Below, piece after piece: positions 42,143 through 50,759 of a stretch of DNA of 51,798 nt. Position numbers and translations under genes: made by a program. This DNA comes from Planctomycetota bacterium (GTDB taxonomy: Bacteria > Planctomycetota > Phycisphaerae > Sedimentisphaerales > Anaerobacaceae). The stretch lies in NCBI GenBank assembly GCA_014384025.1, contig JACNGQ010000101.1, positions 1 to 51,798 on the forward strand. The letters run 5' to 3'. The number at the start of each line of letters is the position of its first letter. The stretch's first letter is position 1. The notes below the pieces were generated by a model that was not told the origin of the DNA, searched no databases, and was given only the letters and a program-made list of their open reading frames with translations.

Positions 42143-42223
42143 CCAAAAACTCTTTGCATTTTGCTTGTTAGCGGGTAGCCTTAATTAATAAAATAGAAAG
42201 TGGCTTTTTTAGGAGCGGAGCAA

Positions 42224-44566
42224 ATGCAAGGTCCTTTCATGCTTTTAATTCTGTTGGGCGTCGCTTGTCTGGTAAGTGGTCCGATTGCATTAATCATTAG
42301 TATTATCGCTTTGAATAAGACAAAAGAAATGTATCGTCAGCTACTACTGAGAAAAGTAGAAAAACCAAGGAGAGAAGAAAAGGTCGCAAGGCCGGTGATT
42401 AGCGAAAAGCCGATTGAAGTAACGAAAGAGGAGCGACCGGCAGAAACAGTTAGAGCGGCTGAAATTGAAGAGCCGAAAAAAATCAGTCAAGATCTTTTAA
42501 AAGCCGCCGCTGAACGAATTAAAGAAAAAGAAAAAGGAGTTGCCGGTCGAGAAACTATTTCGCTTGAACAGCGGATTGGCACACGGTGGATACTTATTGC
42601 AGGCATCATTACGGTAATCTTCGCAGCAGGATTTTTCCTTAAATACGCTTACGACACTAATCTAATAGGGCCTTTGGGTAGAGTGGTTATAGTTGCAATC
42701 TTAGGCCTTGTTGCATTAGCGATCGGAGAAATAACACGGAAGCGAGGATATGGAATCGTTGCCAAAGGTGTAACAGCACTGGGTTTTGCGATACTGTATG
42801 CAGCAGTTTTCTCAGCTTACCGATTTTACGGATTGATTGGTTCGACACCCGCTTTTGCTATTTCAATACTCGTTACAACAGCAGCAATGCTTTATGCGGT
42901 GAGCATGAATGAGATTGTGGTCGCCTTTTTGTCTTTGCTTGGCGGTTTTTTGACGCCTGCGATAGTCTCAACGGGGGAAAATCTTCCAACACCTTTATTC
43001 ATTTATGTCCTGATTTTAGGTCTTGGTGCAATGCTTTGCGCATACTACCGCAAATGGCGAGCAATAAATATTCTTGCTTTCGCCGGAACATTTCTGCTCT
43101 ACATAGGATGGTTTGAGAAGTTTTACCGACCCACGATTCGGTCGGCCGAGGGCATACCTGAGCAGATGGCCATCGCACTGGCATGGCTTACCATCTTTTT
43201 CACAATTTACCTTGTGCTGCCGTTGCTTCATGAATTGATAAAAAAAGTCAAAGCCAAAGAGGAAGATATCCTGCTCGTTCTTGCCAATTCAGCGGTTGTG
43301 TTTTATTACCTGTGGATTATTTTGTTTGAAAAATATCGAACGGCCCTCGCCTTTTGTGCTCTGGCGCTGTGTGCAGCACATTTGGTTATGATGACAGTAG
43401 TTACCCGACGGAACAAAGACGACCTGAATTTGCGATTGGCTCTTCTGGTGATTGGACTGTTTTTCCTGACCATTGCAGTGCCTCTCTACCTGAAGATGTA
43501 CGCGATAGCAATGGCCTGGGCGGCGGAAGGCATTATCCTGGCAGTAATCGGACTGCGGTATCGCAGCCACTGGACCCAGGCGGGCGGGGCTATTGCGCTT
43601 TTATTAAGTTTCGGCCAACTGCTAAGACAGTTACCGATGCATACCGGAGCATTTAACCTCGTATTCAATCCTGCTTTTGGCACATGGTGTTTTGTGGCAG
43701 GTTCGCTGCTTGTATGTCACATCATATACAGAACGACTTCAGAATTACCAGAAGATCAGCGAGGACCAATCACACAAGTTCTGTATGCGGCCACAACGCT
43801 TTTGTTAATGGCGGCGATAACGATGGAGTGGTATTGGCATTGTGATTACAATATTGCGAACAGCGCAATCGGGAACAATCACTTTCTTAAAGGGATGGTA
43901 ATAATATTCACGGGATTCCCATTGCTGCTCCTTGTTCGGCCTATCTGTCCAAAGGGGATTTTGTGCAGGATTCTGGCGATGATTTTAGCGGGAGCGGGGG
44001 CGATTTTCACGATGCTGGTATTCAGTGAGTTTTACAGCCGTTACTTTGTGATTTTCGCAAACCTTGAATTTGGAATCGTCCTTGTGTTTGTTGCAGCTCT
44101 TTTCGCGTCAGGCTGGCTGCTTAGCAATGAAAGTGAAGAGAGTAAGTATAACCAGATATTCGCAACAGCGTTTGTACTGGCAGGGATATTTGTACTGTGG
44201 GTGTTGCTAACTAAAGAAATATATCTGTATTGGTATTGGCATAACAGGTTAGCGGAAAAAACCCCAAATTGGAGGTTTCTATCGCATATGTATATATCGG
44301 TAATGTGGGCGGTTTATGGTGCGGCTTTAATGACAGTCGGCTTCTGGCGAAAGAAGAAAATACTGCGGTATATTGCAATTGGATTGTTTGCTCTGCTATT
44401 AGTGAAAGTATTTATTCTGGATACAAAGACTGTGAAAAGTGTGTACAGAATCGCTGCATTTTTAGCTACGGGAGTTACTTTAGTGGGAGTATCTTATCTT
44501 TATCAATTTTTAAGAAAGAAAGGCTTTTTCGAAACAATACTGGATGAGGAAAATGTGGATAGGTGA
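42224..44566 (+). CDS. DUF2339 polytopic membrane protein
   Basis: Start at ATG 42224, with AGGAG eight bases upstream, gives 780 residues; a GTG 24 bases earlier has no such site. One N-terminal TM is followed by a charged, helical stretch (residues about 35-110, rich in Lys and Glu), then about 20 hydrophobic segments from RIGTRWILIAGIITVIFAAGFFLKYAYD onward. This matches DUF2339, a family of large integral membrane proteins of unknown function. It is followed directly by a DUF3999 protein, a pairing also known from other Gram-negatives, which suggests a shared envelope role. Confidence 0.9.
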   Translation: MQGPFMLLILLGVACLVSGPIALIISIIALNKTKEMYRQLLLRKVEKPRREEKVARPVISEKPIEVTKEERPAETVRAAEIEEPKKISQDLLKAAAERIKEKEKGVAGRETISLEQRIGTRWILIAGIITVIFAAGFFLKYAYDTNLIGPLGRVVIVAILGLVALAIGEITRKRGYGIVAKGVTALGFAILYAAVFSAYRFYGLIGSTPAFAISILVTTAAMLYAVSMNEIVVAFLSLLGGFLTPAIVSTGENLPTPLFIYVLILGLGAMLCAYYRKWRAINILAFAGTFLLYIGWFEKFYRPTIRSAEGIPEQMAIALAWLTIFFTIYLVLPLLHELIKKVKAKEEDILLVLANSAVVFYYLWIILFEKYRTALAFCALALCAAHLVMMTVVTRRNKDDLNLRLALLVIGLFFLTIAVPLYLKMYAIAMAWAAEGIILAVIGLRYRSHWTQAGGAIALLLSFGQLLRQLPMHTGAFNLVFNPAFGTWCFVAGSLLVCHIIYRTTSELPEDQRGPITQVLYAATTLLLMAAITMEWYWHCDYNIANSAIGNNHFLKGMVIIFTGFPLLLLVRPICPKGILCRILAMILAGAGAIFTMLVFSEFYSRYFVIFANLEFGIVLVFVAALFASGWLLSNESEESKYNQIFATAFVLAGIFVLWVLLTKEIYLYWYWHNRLAEKTPNWRFLSHMYISVMWAVYGAALMTVGFWRKKKILRYIAIGLFALLLVKVFILDTKTVKSVYRIAAFLATGVTLVGVSYLYQFLRKKGFFETILDEENVDR

Positions 44567-44584
44567 TTGATTGCGAGGTTTAAG

Positions 44585-45943
44585 ATGATAAGAATCAGAA
44601 TTTTAATGACAGCTACAGCTCTGCTGCTGGCCGGTATAGTAAATAGTGTTTTTGCAATTGAACTGACCGAGTGGAAATATAAGGTTGAGGTTGCCATTGA
44701 AGAAGGTGCCGGCGAGTACTGTAAATTGATACTTACCCCTGATGTTTACAACGACGCAAGGCCTGATTTGGGAGATATTCGACTTGTTAACACCTCCGGC
44801 GAACAGGTTCCTTACGTGCTGGTCAGGCCAAAAGACACTACGGAAAGTCAAAAGTATGAGCCGGATGTAATCAACCGCTCTACAAATGCTGACATAGCAG
44901 CTATGGTGACGCTGGACTTCGGAAAAAAGACGGTGAAGAATTCCATTGAGGTTATAACTGATGGGAACAACTTCAGGCGAGCCGTTAAAGTTGAGGGCTC
45001 CAACGATAATATTGAATTCTTTACATTAGTTGAGCAAGCGTACATTTTTGCAGTTACTTACAATAGACGATTCGAGCAGATTGATTTACCGAAGAATGAT
45101 TACCGTTATTTGCGGATCACTGTTCGGCCAATGATAACGGAAGAAAAAAGTCCTGTTATTGACGAAGTAAGAGCATTTAAGACTGAGAAGAGCCTCGCTG
45201 AACGCAATTCTGTGGAGATGACACTCATAGAGCAAATCGAAGATGAAAAAAGCAACTCGAGTATTTACGTGTATGACCTTGTTTATCGTCGCCTGCCGGT
45301 AAGTGAAATCGAACTCGAAGTAGCTGATGATTCGTTTTACAGATATGTAACTATCGAAGGCAGAGACGCCGAAACACGTGAGGTCAAAGTTTACAGTGAA
45401 GATAACAGGCAGCGGACCAGAAATATTGAGGTAAAGTGGGAAAGAATAATTAATAACACGATTTACAGATATACCGATGCAAACGAACAAAAACATGAAA
45501 GACTGGCTTTGAGTATTCCTTCCGGCTCAAGGATTCACAGGTATCTAAAAATTACTATCAGGAACTACGATGACAGGCCTGTTGGTATAAAGTCGGCATC
45601 TGCAAAGATGATAGCTCACAAGATAGTGTTTACAAATATCGATGATGTCGTGCCTACCTTGTATGTTGGCTCGGAAGATGCAAGAACACCGCAGTACGAC
45701 CTTGAGTACAGGTTGAGTAATCCGTTACAGGTCAAAGCGAGGGCCGCTAAGCTGAGCGGTCTTATCAGTAATCCACTATTTGGACAAGTTGAGAAACCAT
45801 CTTTAGCATGGACAGAGAAACATAAGGTTTTGCTGTTGATAATTATGGTGGTGATGGCACTGGTTCTGGGTGGATTCATATTGAAATCGTTCAAATCTAT
45901 CCAAAGTGAACAGGTTGAAAGAAAACCTCCCGGAAATCATTAA
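44585..45943 (+). CDS. DUF3999 family exported protein
   Basis: ATG 44585 follows GAGG and gives 452 residues; a TTG at 44567 is in frame but lacks support. A signal peptide (ILMTATALLLAGIVNSVFA) is followed by LTEWKYKVEVAIEEG and a beta-rich body (YVLVRPKDTTE, YRYLRITVRP, RIHRYLKITIRNY). A C-terminal transmembrane helix (VLLLIIMVVMALVLGGFIL) ends in a short basic tail. This is the organisation of DUF3999 proteins. It lies 18 bases after the DUF2339 gene. The pair probably forms a complex with the soluble part in the periplasm; the function of the family is unknown. Confidence 0.85.
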   Translation: MIRIRILMTATALLLAGIVNSVFAIELTEWKYKVEVAIEEGAGEYCKLILTPDVYNDARPDLGDIRLVNTSGEQVPYVLVRPKDTTESQKYEPDVINRSTNADIAAMVTLDFGKKTVKNSIEVITDGNNFRRAVKVEGSNDNIEFFTLVEQAYIFAVTYNRRFEQIDLPKNDYRYLRITVRPMITEEKSPVIDEVRAFKTEKSLAERNSVEMTLIEQIEDEKSNSSIYVYDLVYRRLPVSEIELEVADDSFYRYVTIEGRDAETREVKVYSEDNRQRTRNIEVKWERIINNTIYRYTDANEQKHERLALSIPSGSRIHRYLKITIRNYDDRPVGIKSASAKMIAHKIVFTNIDDVVPTLYVGSEDARTPQYDLEYRLSNPLQVKARAAKLSGLISNPLFGQVEKPSLAWTEKHKVLLLIIMVVMALVLGGFILKSFKSIQSEQVERKPPGNH

Positions 45944-46068: not shown

Positions 46069-47124
46069 ATGAGAGTAAATGATGACATTTTGGACTTGCT
46101 CAGAGAAAAGGGAGCTGAAGCTGCTCGGAAAGCACAACGAGGGGTAATTTTACAACCGGGAGCAATTGGTGATTGTATATTAACACTGCCGCTGGCTGCA
46201 TTTATGAAAGAAATCCTCGGATTGGGCAGTGTCGATATTCTTGGGCACAGTGAATATGTCGGCATCTTACCGGGTAGAACCTGCATTGACAGCATTAGCT
46301 CCATAGATTCCATCGATCTACATCGGTTATTTACAGAAACCGAAGCATTTAATCTCACTGACAGAGATCCTCTGATAAATGTATTTTCGAGTTATGCCTG
46401 GATAGCAACCTTTTTAGGCGAGCCGGACAGTAACTTTGAACAAAACCTGATTTTCACAGCTAATTGCAGCCACAGCGCAGAAGTTATAACCCTATTTTTG
46501 AAGCCGCCAAAAAGTTTTTCCGGACATGTAACCGACTTTTACATACAACATTTTATAAGCCATAGCGGTTTGTCTTTGCAATCCTGGCAGGTTCCGCACG
46601 GCGATTGCTTAATAAAAACAACCGAGGTAGATATCGCACGAGGTAAAGAACTGCTAAAAGGGATGGGGCTTGGATATGGTAAAAAACTCGTGGTTATTCA
46701 GCCCGGCAGCGGTGGGTTACACAAATGCTGGCACCTGGACAATTTTTTGGCTGTAGCGAAAAAGCTCGATTCAGAAGGTATTGAGGTCATTTTCTTATTA
46801 GGACCGGCTGAACTGGACAGATTCAGTAATGCAAAAATTGAGAAAATAGGCAGTATTGCAAAGTATTTAAGAGATTTGTCCCTAGAGCAGGTATTGGAAC
46901 TGTTAAGTCATGCAAATGCTTTTATCGGCAACGACAGTGGAATTACGCACATTGCTGCCGTCTTGGGAATCAGAACATTAGCTATATTTGGCCCGACCAA
47001 TCCTGCTGTTTATAGACCCATTGGGCCGGATGTAACAGTATTTACGAATAATACAGCAGCTTTTGCCAAAGAACCATCAGCAAGCCTGCAAAGTAAGATT
47101 TTGGATGTTTTAATAGCAGAATGA
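46069..47124 (+). CDS. Glycosyltransferase family 9 (heptosyltransferase-like)
   Basis: The 351-residue protein has the GT9 motifs: VILQPGAIGDCILTLPLAA near the N-terminus, VVIQPGSGGLHKCWHLDNF (from about residue 206) and FIGNDSGITHIAAVLGIRTLAIFGPTNP, which bind the nucleotide sugar and phosphate. GT9 enzymes add ADP-heptose or related sugars to the lipopolysaccharide core on the cytoplasmic face of the membrane. A 20-residue extension precedes the first motif. A strong promoter lies upstream. Lipid A genes follow, which supports a role in lipopolysaccharide. The sugar is not determinable. Confidence 0.88.
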   Translation: MRVNDDILDLLREKGAEAARKAQRGVILQPGAIGDCILTLPLAAFMKEILGLGSVDILGHSEYVGILPGRTCIDSISSIDSIDLHRLFTETEAFNLTDRDPLINVFSSYAWIATFLGEPDSNFEQNLIFTANCSHSAEVITLFLKPPKSFSGHVTDFYIQHFISHSGLSLQSWQVPHGDCLIKTTEVDIARGKELLKGMGLGYGKKLVVIQPGSGGLHKCWHLDNFLAVAKKLDSEGIEVIFLLGPAELDRFSNAKIEKIGSIAKYLRDLSLEQVLELLSHANAFIGNDSGITHIAAVLGIRTLAIFGPTNPAVYRPIGPDVTVFTNNTAAFAKEPSASLQSKILDVLIAE

Positions 47125-47307: not shown

Positions 47308-48381
47308 ATGCAGGAAAGAACGTTGGGTGAATTAGCTGAATATGTGGGGGGGCGGATCTGCGGAGATCCTGGCGTGAGAATCAAATCTGCCTCGACACTT
47401 GCACGGGCGGGTGAAGGTGATATTAGTTTTCTAACCAATCGCAAATACGAAAAACAACTACGAACAACCAAGGCAAGTGCAGTAATCGTAGGCAAAGAGA
47501 CCCCTTCTACTTTAGTTCCTCTTTTGATAGCCGATGATCCTTACTATACCTTTATGCAGATAATGGTGTTGCTTCACGGACATCGGAAGCATAAAAAAAT
47601 AGGAATAAGCCAACGAGCTTCTATTGCCGACAGTGCAAAAATTGGTGCGGACTGTCACATTCATGATTTTGTAACAATAGCCGATGATGTAAGGATCGGC
47701 GACGGCTGTATAATATATCCCTGCGTGCACATTGGGGAAGCTGTGCAAATTGGTAATGACAGTATAATATATCCCAATGTTACTCTTTACGATGGTTGTA
47801 AAATAGGCAATCGCGTAATCATAAATGCGAATTCGACAGTCGGGGAAGATGGCTTCGGCTACGCCACTCATAAGGGCATACATCATAAAATACCACAAAC
47901 CAGTATTGTTATTATAGAAGATGATGTCGAAATCGGTGCTTGTTGCGGGATCGAGCGAGGTACACTCGGCGATACTGTAATAGGCCAAGGTAGTAAGCTG
48001 GGAGACCTTGTTGCAATAGGCCATGGCACAAGAATCGGTCCACATTGCTTACTTGTAGCCCAAGTGGGAATTGCCGGCTCGACCAGCCTTGGGCATCATT
48101 GTACAGTCGGCGGGCAGGCCGGTATTGTTGGTCATATTAATATTGGAAATAACGTTACTATTGGGGCCCAGGCTGGAGTCATTAATAACATTCCAGATGG
48201 CAAAGTGGTTATAGGGGCACCTGCCATCGATGCGAACCAAGGCAGGCGAGCATACGGCATCATACAAAATTTGCCTGAAATGCGGCAAAATATTCGTAAC
48301 CTCCAGAACCGGATTGAAGGAATTGCCTCACCTGCCGAATCCGATCCTGAAAAAAAGTCTGAGCGGGATCACGGCTCGTAA
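47308..48381 (+). CDS. lpxD: UDP-3-O-acylglucosamine N-acyltransferase
   Basis: The 357-residue protein is the third-step lipid A enzyme, transferring a 3-hydroxyacyl chain from acyl carrier protein to the amino group of UDP-3-O-acyl-GlcN. An N-terminal uridine-binding domain (TLGELAEYVGGRICGD, DISFLTNRKYEKQL) is followed by a left-handed beta-helix of hexapeptide repeats at about 105-320. The conserved GEDGFGYA stretch and the GHGTRIGPHC segment, which carries the probable catalytic His, are intact. The C-terminal helix (LPEMRQNIRNLQNRIE) is normal. Length fits the family. Its own promoter precedes it; lpxI follows. Confidence 0.95.
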   Translation: MQERTLGELAEYVGGRICGDPGVRIKSASTLARAGEGDISFLTNRKYEKQLRTTKASAVIVGKETPSTLVPLLIADDPYYTFMQIMVLLHGHRKHKKIGISQRASIADSAKIGADCHIHDFVTIADDVRIGDGCIIYPCVHIGEAVQIGNDSIIYPNVTLYDGCKIGNRVIINANSTVGEDGFGYATHKGIHHKIPQTSIVIIEDDVEIGACCGIERGTLGDTVIGQGSKLGDLVAIGHGTRIGPHCLLVAQVGIAGSTSLGHHCTVGGQAGIVGHINIGNNVTIGAQAGVINNIPDGKVVIGAPAIDANQGRRAYGIIQNLPEMRQNIRNLQNRIEGIASPAESDPEKKSERDHGS

Positions 48382-48534
48382 AACCCGACACACCAGCCGA
48401 CTGCTAAACAAGGGAAATGAAATACGAATATCGAACAGGAAATATTGACAAATGCACTTCTGACAAGTGTATCATATTTTGAACAGGACATTCCCTTGAG
48501 CGAGATACAAGATACGAGATACGAGGCACGAGAC
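48382..48534. repeat. ACGAGATACGAG-type short repeats before lpxI
   Basis: The gap between lpxD and the preferred lpxI start holds GAAATACGAATATCGAA (from about 48418) and iterations of GATACAAGATACGAGATACGAG (about 48502-48525). In open frames these read as EIRIS and TRYE-type peptides. Related short repeats are, from general knowledge, common intergenic filler in planctomycete-like genomes. The region is open in the lpxI frame, so it could also be read as an N-terminal extension. Confidence 0.5.
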
Positions 48535-49356
48535 GTGCTTGGCTTAATTGCCGGAGAGGGTAGATTGCCTTTTCTTGTAGCTGCCGGGGCGAAAAAGGCG
48601 GGATTAAAAGTTATTTGTGTCGGCCTTGCGGAAACGCCGGAGGGTGGCCTGGTTGACGAAGTTGATGTATTTTACAGAGTTGCGCTTGCCCGGCCCGGGG
48701 CCTGGATACGAAAGTTAAGAAAACACAGCGTAACCAGAACGATTATGGTCGGGCGGGTTTCAAAAGGACGACTTTTCACTCCATGGCGAATCCTGCGGTA
48801 TCTGCCCGACTGGCGGGCATTCAGAATATACTACTGGCGGTTACGCAATGAAAACAAACTAACAGATTCACTCTTATGCGCCTTAGCCGACGAACTGGCA
48901 AGCGGAGGAATAATATTGGAGAATTCAATTATGTATTGCAAAGAACACTTAGCAACGGCAGGAGCGATGACAGCAGATCCTCTTCGCCCCTCAGTCAAAG
49001 GAGATATCGAATTCGGCTGGGAAATAGTCAAAAAACTTGGCGAACTTGATATAGGCCAGGCAATTGCAGTGAAAGAAAAGGAAGTGATTGCCATCGAAGC
49101 GATAGAAGGTACTGCCGAGATGATTAAGCGGGCCGGCAGATTTTGTAAATCCGGCGGCTGGACACTAATCAAGGCCTCTAAACCCCAACAGGATATGCGA
49201 TTTGATGTGCCATGCGTGGGACCAGATACTATCAGAAGTTTAGCCGAGAATGGAAGCAAATGCCTGGTAGTGGAAACAGACAAAACGATAATTATCGACA
49301 AATCCGAAACAATTAAACTTGCCAATCAATTAGGCATAACCATTTTTGGGCATTGA
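48535..49356 (+). CDS. lpxI: UDP-2,3-diacylglucosamine pyrophosphatase, LpxI type
   Basis: The product belongs to the LpxI (DUF1009) family that hydrolyses UDP-2,3-diacylglucosamine to lipid X. I prefer GTG 48535 as start, with GAGG eight bases upstream, giving 273 residues that begin LGLIAGEGRLPFLVAAGAKK as in other members. A TTG at 48445 would add 30 residues encoded by repeat-like DNA. Conserved stretches are TIMVGRVSKGRLF, KLTDSLLCALADELASGG, DIGQAIAVKEKEVIAIEAIEGT, GGWTLIKASKPQQDMRFDVPCVGPDT and the C-terminal VVETDKTIIIDK. Its presence with lpxD shows a lipid A pathway using the LpxI branch instead of LpxH. Confidence 0.92.
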   Translation: MLGLIAGEGRLPFLVAAGAKKAGLKVICVGLAETPEGGLVDEVDVFYRVALARPGAWIRKLRKHSVTRTIMVGRVSKGRLFTPWRILRYLPDWRAFRIYYWRLRNENKLTDSLLCALADELASGGIILENSIMYCKEHLATAGAMTADPLRPSVKGDIEFGWEIVKKLGELDIGQAIAVKEKEVIAIEAIEGTAEMIKRAGRFCKSGGWTLIKASKPQQDMRFDVPCVGPDTIRSLAENGSKCLVVETDKTIIIDKSETIKLANQLGITIFGH

Positions 49357-49400: not shown

Positions 49401-50759
49401 ATGGCTGAATTTCCATTTCAACTTGTAATCAACCGCACTTATCCACGGAAACGTCGGGAGTGTCTGTTATGTACCGCCCTTCTAAGAGCCATTCCCGGCA
49501 GACGAAAGGTTTATGATGCCTCGTGGGGCAACAAAAGTGTTATTGCAAAAGTGTTTTCTCACAAGATTAGCGCAAGGCGCCATTTAAGGCGAGAATGGCA
49601 GGGATTGAAATTGCTGGTGAGCCATGGAATTAGCGCACCGGAACCTTTATTTTACGGACATACTGAAGATGGTCATTGGGCGGTTGTGGTTCAAAAAATA
49701 CCCGAATCATCAACGATTTCGGATATATTTCTCCAAACACCGGATCCATGCAAGAAGCTGAGCTTGTTAGTTTTGATCTGCAAGGAGATGGCCAAACAAC
49801 ACATCAAAGGGATCTTACAAAAAGATTTGCACTTGGGAAATTTTTTATTAAGAGAAGGTAAGGTTTTTGCGCTTGATGCCGGACAGATGCATTTCCTGCG
49901 GCGTGAGGCTGATAGAAAAAGCAGTATTTCTCAGTTAGCGATGCTGGCGTACTATTTGCCGGATAACAATACGCAGTCCATAACGACATTTTGTGAGGAG
50001 TATTTCCAAGCTCGCGGCTGGCGTTTTGGAATGGCAGACCAAACTTTATTTCAAAAACAATTAGCTTCACATCAAAGAAGAATGGTCAGAAAAGGGCTGA
50101 AAAAGTGCATGCGAACAAGTAAGAGGCAGCTTCGAGTTAAAACAACAAGGTATATTGCCATGTTTGATAAAGTTTTTAGTCCGGAAACCAAATCACTTGG
50201 TTTTATAGAGGAATTAGATAAACTAATGGACGAAGGACAGATTCTAAAAAACGGCAACACCTGTTATGTTTGTCGCCTAATGTTAAATGGCCGGGATGTG
50301 GTGGTTAAACGCTATAACCATAAAGGCTTTATTCATTCATTGCGCCACACCATCAAGAAATCCCGTGCCCAACGAGGTTGGCTTCAAGGCCATAGGCTCG
50401 GGATGCTTAACATAGCTACTCCGAAACCATTGGCCTATATAGAAGTGCTTAAAAAAAAGCTTATATGGAAATCTTATCTGGTTACCGAATATGTTGATGG
50501 ACAGAAACTGTATGATTTCCTGCAGGACAGTAATGTTACCAAAGAACAACACTCAATGATAATCCAACAGATTAAAGGGCTGCTCGACAAAATGGGGGAA
50601 TACCATATCACTCATGGGGATTTGAAGCACACAAATATTTTGGTTACAGATAATGGGCCTGTACTGACAGACCTTGATGGGATGAAAGCACACAAATTGA
50701 GCTGGACATATAAAAGCGGTCGAGCAAAGGACTTGCAGCGATTCATAAAATATGAATAG
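49401..50759 (+). CDS. Tandem WaaP/Kdo-kinase-like protein
   Basis: The 452-residue protein holds two kinase-like domains. In the first (about 1-215), VIAKVFS offers the ATP-binding Lys, QKDLHLGNFLL the catalytic Asp and Asn, and FALDAGQ the metal-binding Asp. In the second (about 255-452) the equivalents are VVVKRYN, ITHGDLKHTNILV and VLTDLDG. Both look catalytically complete. They resemble the lipopolysaccharide kinase family (WaaP, KdkA), which phosphorylates heptose or Kdo in the inner core. Family proteins usually have one domain of about 250 residues, so this is a duplication-fusion. It lies 44 bases after lpxI. Acceptors of the two domains may differ (inference). Confidence 0.82.
   Translation: MAEFPFQLVINRTYPRKRRECLLCTALLRAIPGRRKVYDASWGNKSVIAKVFSHKISARRHLRREWQGLKLLVSHGISAPEPLFYGHTEDGHWAVVVQKIPESSTISDIFLQTPDPCKKLSLLVLICKEMAKQHIKGILQKDLHLGNFLLREGKVFALDAGQMHFLRREADRKSSISQLAMLAYYLPDNNTQSITTFCEEYFQARGWRFGMADQTLFQKQLASHQRRMVRKGLKKCMRTSKRQLRVKTTRYIAMFDKVFSPETKSLGFIEELDKLMDEGQILKNGNTCYVCRLMLNGRDVVVKRYNHKGFIHSLRHTIKKSRAQRGWLQGHRLGMLNIATPKPLAYIEVLKKKLIWKSYLVTEYVDGQKLYDFLQDSNVTKEQHSMIIQQIKGLLDKMGEYHITHGDLKHTNILVTDNGPVLTDLDGMKAHKLSWTYKSGRAKDLQRFIKYE

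Follow-up and report, generated by a model that had tools for sequence, protein, structure and literature searches.

A candidate dual lipopolysaccharide inner-core kinase beside lpxD and lpxI in a planctomycete, with one constant and one exchangeable kinase domain

Phosphates on the lipopolysaccharide core, best known from Proteobacteria with their single-domain kinases, hold the outer membrane together via divalent cations. The envelopes of Planctomycetota are poorly understood. The window analysed here, a 51,798-nt stretch of planctomycete DNA, holds one open reading frame with two kinase domains (A and B) behind lpxD and lpxI. The question is what two such domains do in one chain: a sequence-only reading had proposed that they phosphorylate two core positions, or that one half regulates the other. 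The features concerned are as follows.

46069..47124, + strand: GT9 family glycosyltransferase, heptosyltransferase-like (PF01075, 95.2 bits; order conserved in relatives)
47308..48381, + strand: lpxD, UDP-3-O-acylglucosamine N-acyltransferase (TIGR01853, 329 bits, cut-off 242.5)
48445..49356, + strand: lpxI, UDP-2,3-diacylglucosamine diphosphatase (Pfam LpxI_C 156 bits, LpxI_N 89 bits)
49401..50759 (stop codon counted), + strand: putative tandem lipopolysaccharide kinase A+B, 452 aa, ATG start (open reading frame, translation, PF06293, relatives)
49401..50105, + strand: kinase domain A, residues 1-235 (residue tallies, fold)
Codons in A: Lys50 49548-49550; Glu65 49593-49595; Asp142 49824-49826; Asn147 49839-49841; Asp159 49875-49877
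50124..50756, + strand: kinase domain B, residues 242-452 (PF06293 alone, residue tallies, fold)
Codons in B: Lys303 50307-50309; Gly326 (alphaC Glu position) 50376-50378; Asp407 50619-50621; Asn412 50634-50636; Asp424 50670-50672

The genes follow one another as lpxD, lpxI and kinase, the kinase ATG lying 44 nt past the end of lpxI, and the order GT9, lpxD, lpxI, kinase is also found in relatives. About 50 non-redundant A+B frames, the window's own among them, were read and are open, so the fusion is real and no chance frame; a frameshift or assembly artefact as its source was thereby ruled out. Both halves are under purifying selection: against a relative with 92% identity (L047), dN/dS was 0.28 for A, 0.11 for B and 0.12 for LpxI. 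Upstream of the GT9-lpxD-lpxI-kinase block, window positions 42200-45943 carry a gene for a DUF2339 membrane protein and, directly behind it, a DUF3999 gene. On the 3' side, from 50760 to the contig end at 51798, there were short frames only and no ORF of >100 aa. A fragment at a contig edge of the same genome (G000, C193:2-193) shares 53% identity with the N-terminal 64 residues of A; it is perhaps a paralogue, perhaps a contaminating contig.

The whole protein matched Pfam PF06293 (Kdo/WaaP) with 68.8 bits in 2 stretches (cut-off 21.3). Scored by half, B passed alone (56 bits) and A failed (17 bits); the A-type proteins of relatives reached 34.9 and 49.9 bits. Two kinase folds were predicted in the AlphaFold model (11 sequences), with a mean pLDDT of 75.9 and a pTM of 0.50, too low for the arrangement of the two halves to be relied on. 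The domain search and structure prediction suggested with the sequence-only reading have thus returned PF06293 twice and two predicted kinase folds, and its claim of two kinase domains in one protein beside lpxD-lpxI is borne out by the reading frame, the PF06293 matches and the LpxD and LpxI neighbours. In an HMM-HMM comparison, A and B matched with 98.6% probability and 20% identity. At that identity the halves are old relatives, and a recent internal duplication was ruled out as their origin.

In the predicted structure, A matched PRPK (residues 7-225, Z 16.6) and WaaP 6dfl (residues 11-233, Z 14.8, 211 aligned, rmsd 4.9), and B matched PRPK (residues 261-452, Z 15.9); WaaP was in the fold-match list for A only, and its absence from the list for B carries no weight. 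The best PDB matches were PRPK/Bud32 and RIO kinases, for both halves by fold and for A also by profile. Although these are the closest solved folds, they have another genomic context, and the NCBIfam Bud32 models gave 44.6 bits for B and 23.3 bits for A, far below their cut-offs (125 to 372). Among the NCBIfam lipopolysaccharide-kinase models, the Kdo kinase NF002475 (cut-off 142) came first for B, at 43.1 bits, and for A, at 14.8 bits; the RfaP equivalog (cut-off 170) gave 16.3 bits for B and no match to A at E 0.1. The WaaP-like label originally put on the domains fits the kinase fold and the alignment of A with 6dfl, but not the NCBIfam ranking, in which the Kdo kinase comes first. KdkA phosphorylates Kdo at O-4 and consists of one domain (model length 241), whereas the window protein, for both halves of which it is the best lipopolysaccharide-kinase model, scores far below its cut-off and has two. 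An A+B protein of another genome (G230) matched the same model with 76.8 bits in two stretches, one spanning 7-216 of 241. By fold and Pfam the halves belong to known lipopolysaccharide-kinase families; they fit no equivalog.

The catalytic residues of A are K50, E65, D142 (in KDLHLGN), N147 and D159 (in LDAG), and those of B are K303, D407 (in HGDLKHTN), N412 and D424/D426 (in DLDG). Each half thus has the Lys, the HGD/KDL-type Asp with Asn and the DxG-like Asp that had been read in it, and these are near-invariant in relatives. In 57 non-redundant A domains the Lys was present 56 times (plus 1 gap), the alphaC Glu in 54/57, and the catalytic Asp, Asn and Mg Asp each in 57/57. In 92 non-redundant B domains the Lys was kept in 89/92, the catalytic Asp in 83/85 ungapped, the Asn in 84/86 and the Mg Asp in 83/84; the alphaC Glu was present in 0/92, with mostly small residues at the position, and E65 of A faces G326 of B in the HMM-HMM alignment. 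One residue alignment includes a row (L081) that is a C+B protein (see below) lined up as if A+B.

The WaaP residues K51/D163/D188 have their counterparts in K50, D142 and D159 of A and in K303, D407 and D424 of B. Measured against WaaP, the halves are complete for Lys, Asp and Mg Asp, but B is without the alphaC Glu, which from the alignments is a real departure. A shares the kinase fold, Lys, alphaC Glu and both Asp with the heptose(I) kinase WaaP/RfaP; it differs in having K/R/E before the catalytic Asp where WaaP has H-R-D, B is shorter at the C-terminus, and the place of WaaP H168 is taken by Asn in both (A 57/57, B 84/86). WaaP has bound acyl-ACP and has a three-helix C-terminal subdomain; the alignment of A with almost all of 6dfl is consistent with such a subdomain. 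In solved WaaP the alphaC Glu (E78) holds the ATP Lys, according to the accessible text of PMC6147952.

A third PF06293 kinase, C, is RfaP-like and is found fused after or before B in relatives. Its alphaC position was not Glu in 45/48 rows, with the other catalytic residues kept, so the absence of this Glu alone is no mark of a dead kinase. Among relatives, B occurs as A+B, as B+C (L049, L051, L053, L056, L059, L163, L164), as C+B (L054, L060, L081, L082, L089, L098, L165-L167, L179, L180) and alone (L061, L062, L064, L066, L068, L173-L175). One genome (G145, L161) encodes C and B in two unfused genes that overlap by 4 nt, with an RfaP-type gene nearby. Within a single genus (g21), the slot behind lpxI holds A+B in G041 and B+C in G039 and G040.

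Among the matches listed for the 161 genomes of the order, A was present in 54, C in 65 and both in 2. Genomes in which A is accompanied by a truncated B (G023, G123-G125) count towards A, as do fragments at contig edges (G080, G115), but two weak matches (G134, G136) do not; the list for C omits short fragments (G089, G108, G109), and counting G089 as C would raise the genomes with both to 3. With kinship ignored, 21.8 co-occurrences were expected (Fisher p 4e-13). A and C are close to mutually exclusive. In five genera (g2, g12, g21, g40, g46) some species have only A and others only C; a sixth genus (g41) is represented by one genome, G081, which has both domains. On a tree of the B domain the partner of the fused proteins switches at least 10 times, and, with only starred branches counted, at least 6 changes are still required for A+B and 3 each for C+B and B+C; this was a quick tree of 87/92 rows (150 aa or more) in which 37/84 inner branches are weak and fused partners below 90 bits were scored as B alone. 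In G089, 137 aa of a C kinase (L088:2201-2611) are encoded immediately upstream of an A+B gene whose B falls inside a C+B clade; the piece is perhaps a remnant of a reverse exchange.

At the lpxI slot, B+C proteins open with the N-terminal residues of A and then pass straight to where B starts: in L059, MAEFPFQFFIKRNLSNRRAELLTFR is followed by GLKKHL, and in L057, from the window's own genus (G071; the contig breaks off before whatever follows B), MAEFPFQIFVKRTSLKKQAELLTYR is followed by EFKKHLRTSER. The A+B proteins start with MAEFPFQL and reach GLKKC.RTSK only past the entire A domain. A weaker likeness to the start of A was seen in L053 and L056. On this remnant of the A start before B, the simplest reading would be that A was lost in frame and C was added behind B.

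Where 900 nt or more of upstream sequence is available, lpxI is the gene directly before the kinase in 20/45 A+B, 5/6 B+C, 4/10 C+B and 2/14 loci with B alone; the other 25/45 A+B genes are not directly behind lpxI. In two such loci (L043, L086), GT2, GT4-type and PF13524 glycosyltransferases and FkbM methyltransferases are nearby. One of the two (L086) also has an ABC transporter whose membrane domain and ATPase domain share one chain, which we liken to MsbA, presumably built in the same way. Elsewhere a GT9-kinase fusion is found at a distance of 1.2 kb from A+B (L045), or A+B runs on into a GT2 glycosyltransferase, giving 811 aa (L030/G034). In a protein of 792 aa in G131 (L090:5137-7512), A+B is followed by a third domain that is kinase-like.

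The genome of the window holds further genes of the pathway. Contig C80 carries, in order, lpxK (C80:3610-4593, 264 bits), hldE, gmhA, a gmhB-like phosphatase gene, a GT9-kinase fusion and a GT4-type gene; kdtA is on contig C191. HldE and GmhA fall just under their NCBIfam equivalog cut-offs (334.9 vs 345 and 195.2 vs 209.45 bits). With these genes present the acceptor sugars are likely available, and the case of a genome with no heptose or Kdo acceptor was ruled out. The fusion is the following feature.

L125:7937-9907 (contig C80): GT9 heptosyltransferase fused to an RfaP/WaaP-type kinase, 656 aa

Its kinase has HRD and then His at the Asn place, as WaaP does, and scored 92.5 bits against NCBIfam RfaP (cut-off 170); the C profile was nearest to it (C 97.0, B 44.8, A 28.3 bits). 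GT9-kinase frames of ~630-730 aa were found in many genomes of the order (including L045:383-2401). Judged by these motifs and scores, the fusion is the candidate for the canonical heptose kinase of the genome, and A+B would then be not its canonical WaaP but an additional kinase.

The two halves have not fared alike in the order. B has lost catalytic residues in three genomes (G003, G050, G075) and is truncated in six (G023, G024, G027, G123, G124, G125); among the matches listed, a full B was present elsewhere in 2/9 of these genomes (G124, G125). A was broken in 0 genomes, with its Asp, Asn and Mg Asp intact in 57/57 rows. Where both occur, A looks more constrained than B; the window's close relatives show the opposite trend, with the lower dN/dS in B. 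Given the decay of B in 9 genomes, the pairing of two activities in one protein is not always retained.

We infer, with somewhat better than even confidence, that A and B phosphorylate two different positions of the inner core, as a dual lipopolysaccharide inner-core kinase. This part of the earlier proposal is the best supported of the readings, on the catalytic residues in both halves, the swapping of partners and the adjacent unfused genes. Purifying selection on the two halves, the lipid A and core gene context, the GT2 fusion and the near-exclusion of A and C also speak for it; against it stand the missing alphaC Glu of B, the decay of B in nine genomes, the 25/45 A+B loci away from lpxI and the resemblance of both halves to Bud32/PRPK, which is about as good as that to any lipopolysaccharide kinase. 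Each half would have its own eukaryotic-like kinase fold and bind ATP in its N-lobe, and the catalytic Asp of each would activate a hydroxyl on the lipid-anchored core, so that, on the inner face of the inner membrane, phosphate from ATP would reach two different sites of the Kdo-heptose core while it is being built on lipid A. Of the two modules, B would be the fixed one and A the exchangeable partner, swapped in relatives for the RfaP-like C; the fusion would couple the two phosphorylations and fix their ratio. B, being nearest the Kdo kinases, may act on Kdo, and A, being replaced by the RfaP-like C, may act on heptose.

The main rival, which we consider unlikely, is that only one half is a lipopolysaccharide kinase, while its partner half, by binding ATP or the acceptor, serves as scaffold, membrane anchor or regulator, B being the likelier helper. 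The missing alphaC Glu in every B domain and the decay of B beside a steadily intact A fit it, but B almost always keeps Lys, Asp, Asn and Mg Asp and has a low dN/dS. If the missing Glu meant inactivity, both halves of the B+C proteins would be dead; B also occurs as a stand-alone gene, and its partner has been swapped for a different subfamily. Because that swap has happened many times, the suggestion that one half regulates the other is weakened for A as the regulator; it survives for B as a degraded helper, since B is without the alphaC Glu and broken in some species.

It is improbable that the halves act in series at one position, building a pyrophosphate. Two competent-looking kinases in one chain fit this as well, and the sequence cannot separate it from two-site phosphorylation, but in the accessible text of PMC6147952 and PMC4702295 the family is described as phosphorylating sugar, so that a kinase acting on phosphate would be a further step. 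The same low standing goes to an acceptor other than lipopolysaccharide, with the halves as Bud32/PRPK- or RIO-like kinases or ATPases on a protein or a tRNA-modification complex. The PDB matches and the Bud32 scores are what speak for it; against it are the shortfall of every Bud32 score from its cut-off, the lpxD-lpxI context, the GT2 fusion, the core-gene clusters and the exchange with an RfaP-like domain. That one half replaces the lipid A 4'-kinase LpxK, as its place beside lpxD and lpxI might suggest, is very improbable and was ruled out in the own genome, which has a separate LpxK match, as have 146/161 genomes of the order; the Pfam scan gave no match of the kinase protein to PF02606 (LpxK).

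We put forward tentatively, at a little under even confidence, that core phosphorylation in Planctomycetota relies on a plug-in two-kinase enzyme, in which a constant B is joined to an interchangeable A or C placed ahead of it or behind it. A would have been excised in frame, and C attached, repeatedly, and the pairing would set a fixed two-phosphate pattern of the core, beside a fusion that would phosphorylate heptose on its addition.

The protein does not stand alone in the phylum. A sample of 392 phylum genomes yielded a further clear A+B protein from outside the order (that of G230, 464 aa), more diverged A+B-like proteins (L102, L103, L107, L116) and, from other families, tandem kinases of the C+C-like type, 537-584 aa long (L109, L113, L115, L118, L119). 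The architecture is thus a recurrent planctomycete feature and no singular oddity. As to plasmid-borne relatives, only two matches turned up in the plasmid collection, both weak and partial.

A parallel in the literature is the Pseudomonas cluster waaP-wapP-wapQ-PA5006, in which several kinases act on one inner core; in the accessible text of PMC8005017 and PMC8707732 they are described as separate genes, unlike the fused domains here. A two-domain lipopolysaccharide kinase is unmentioned in the accessible text of PMC6147952, PMC8005017, PMC8707732, PMC1262709, PMC4702295, PMC3087551 and PMC9138534, and no description was found in the titles and abstracts searched, which cover subscription journals thinly. 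The lipopolysaccharide-kinase parts are known; the fused and shuffled architecture is apparently new, as far as the literature searched goes. We take PA5006 to be a possible two-domain kinase.

For the biology of these envelopes, two or three kinase modules in varied orders, in one genome with a glycosyltransferase, form a natural series from which it may be learned which module places which phosphate. The same family lets one ask why two modules stay in one chain. B, with all catalytic residues but the alphaC Glu, is a test case for how a kinase dispenses with that Glu. If the plug-in proposal is true, the fusion itself, rather than the identity of the partner, would be what is kept.
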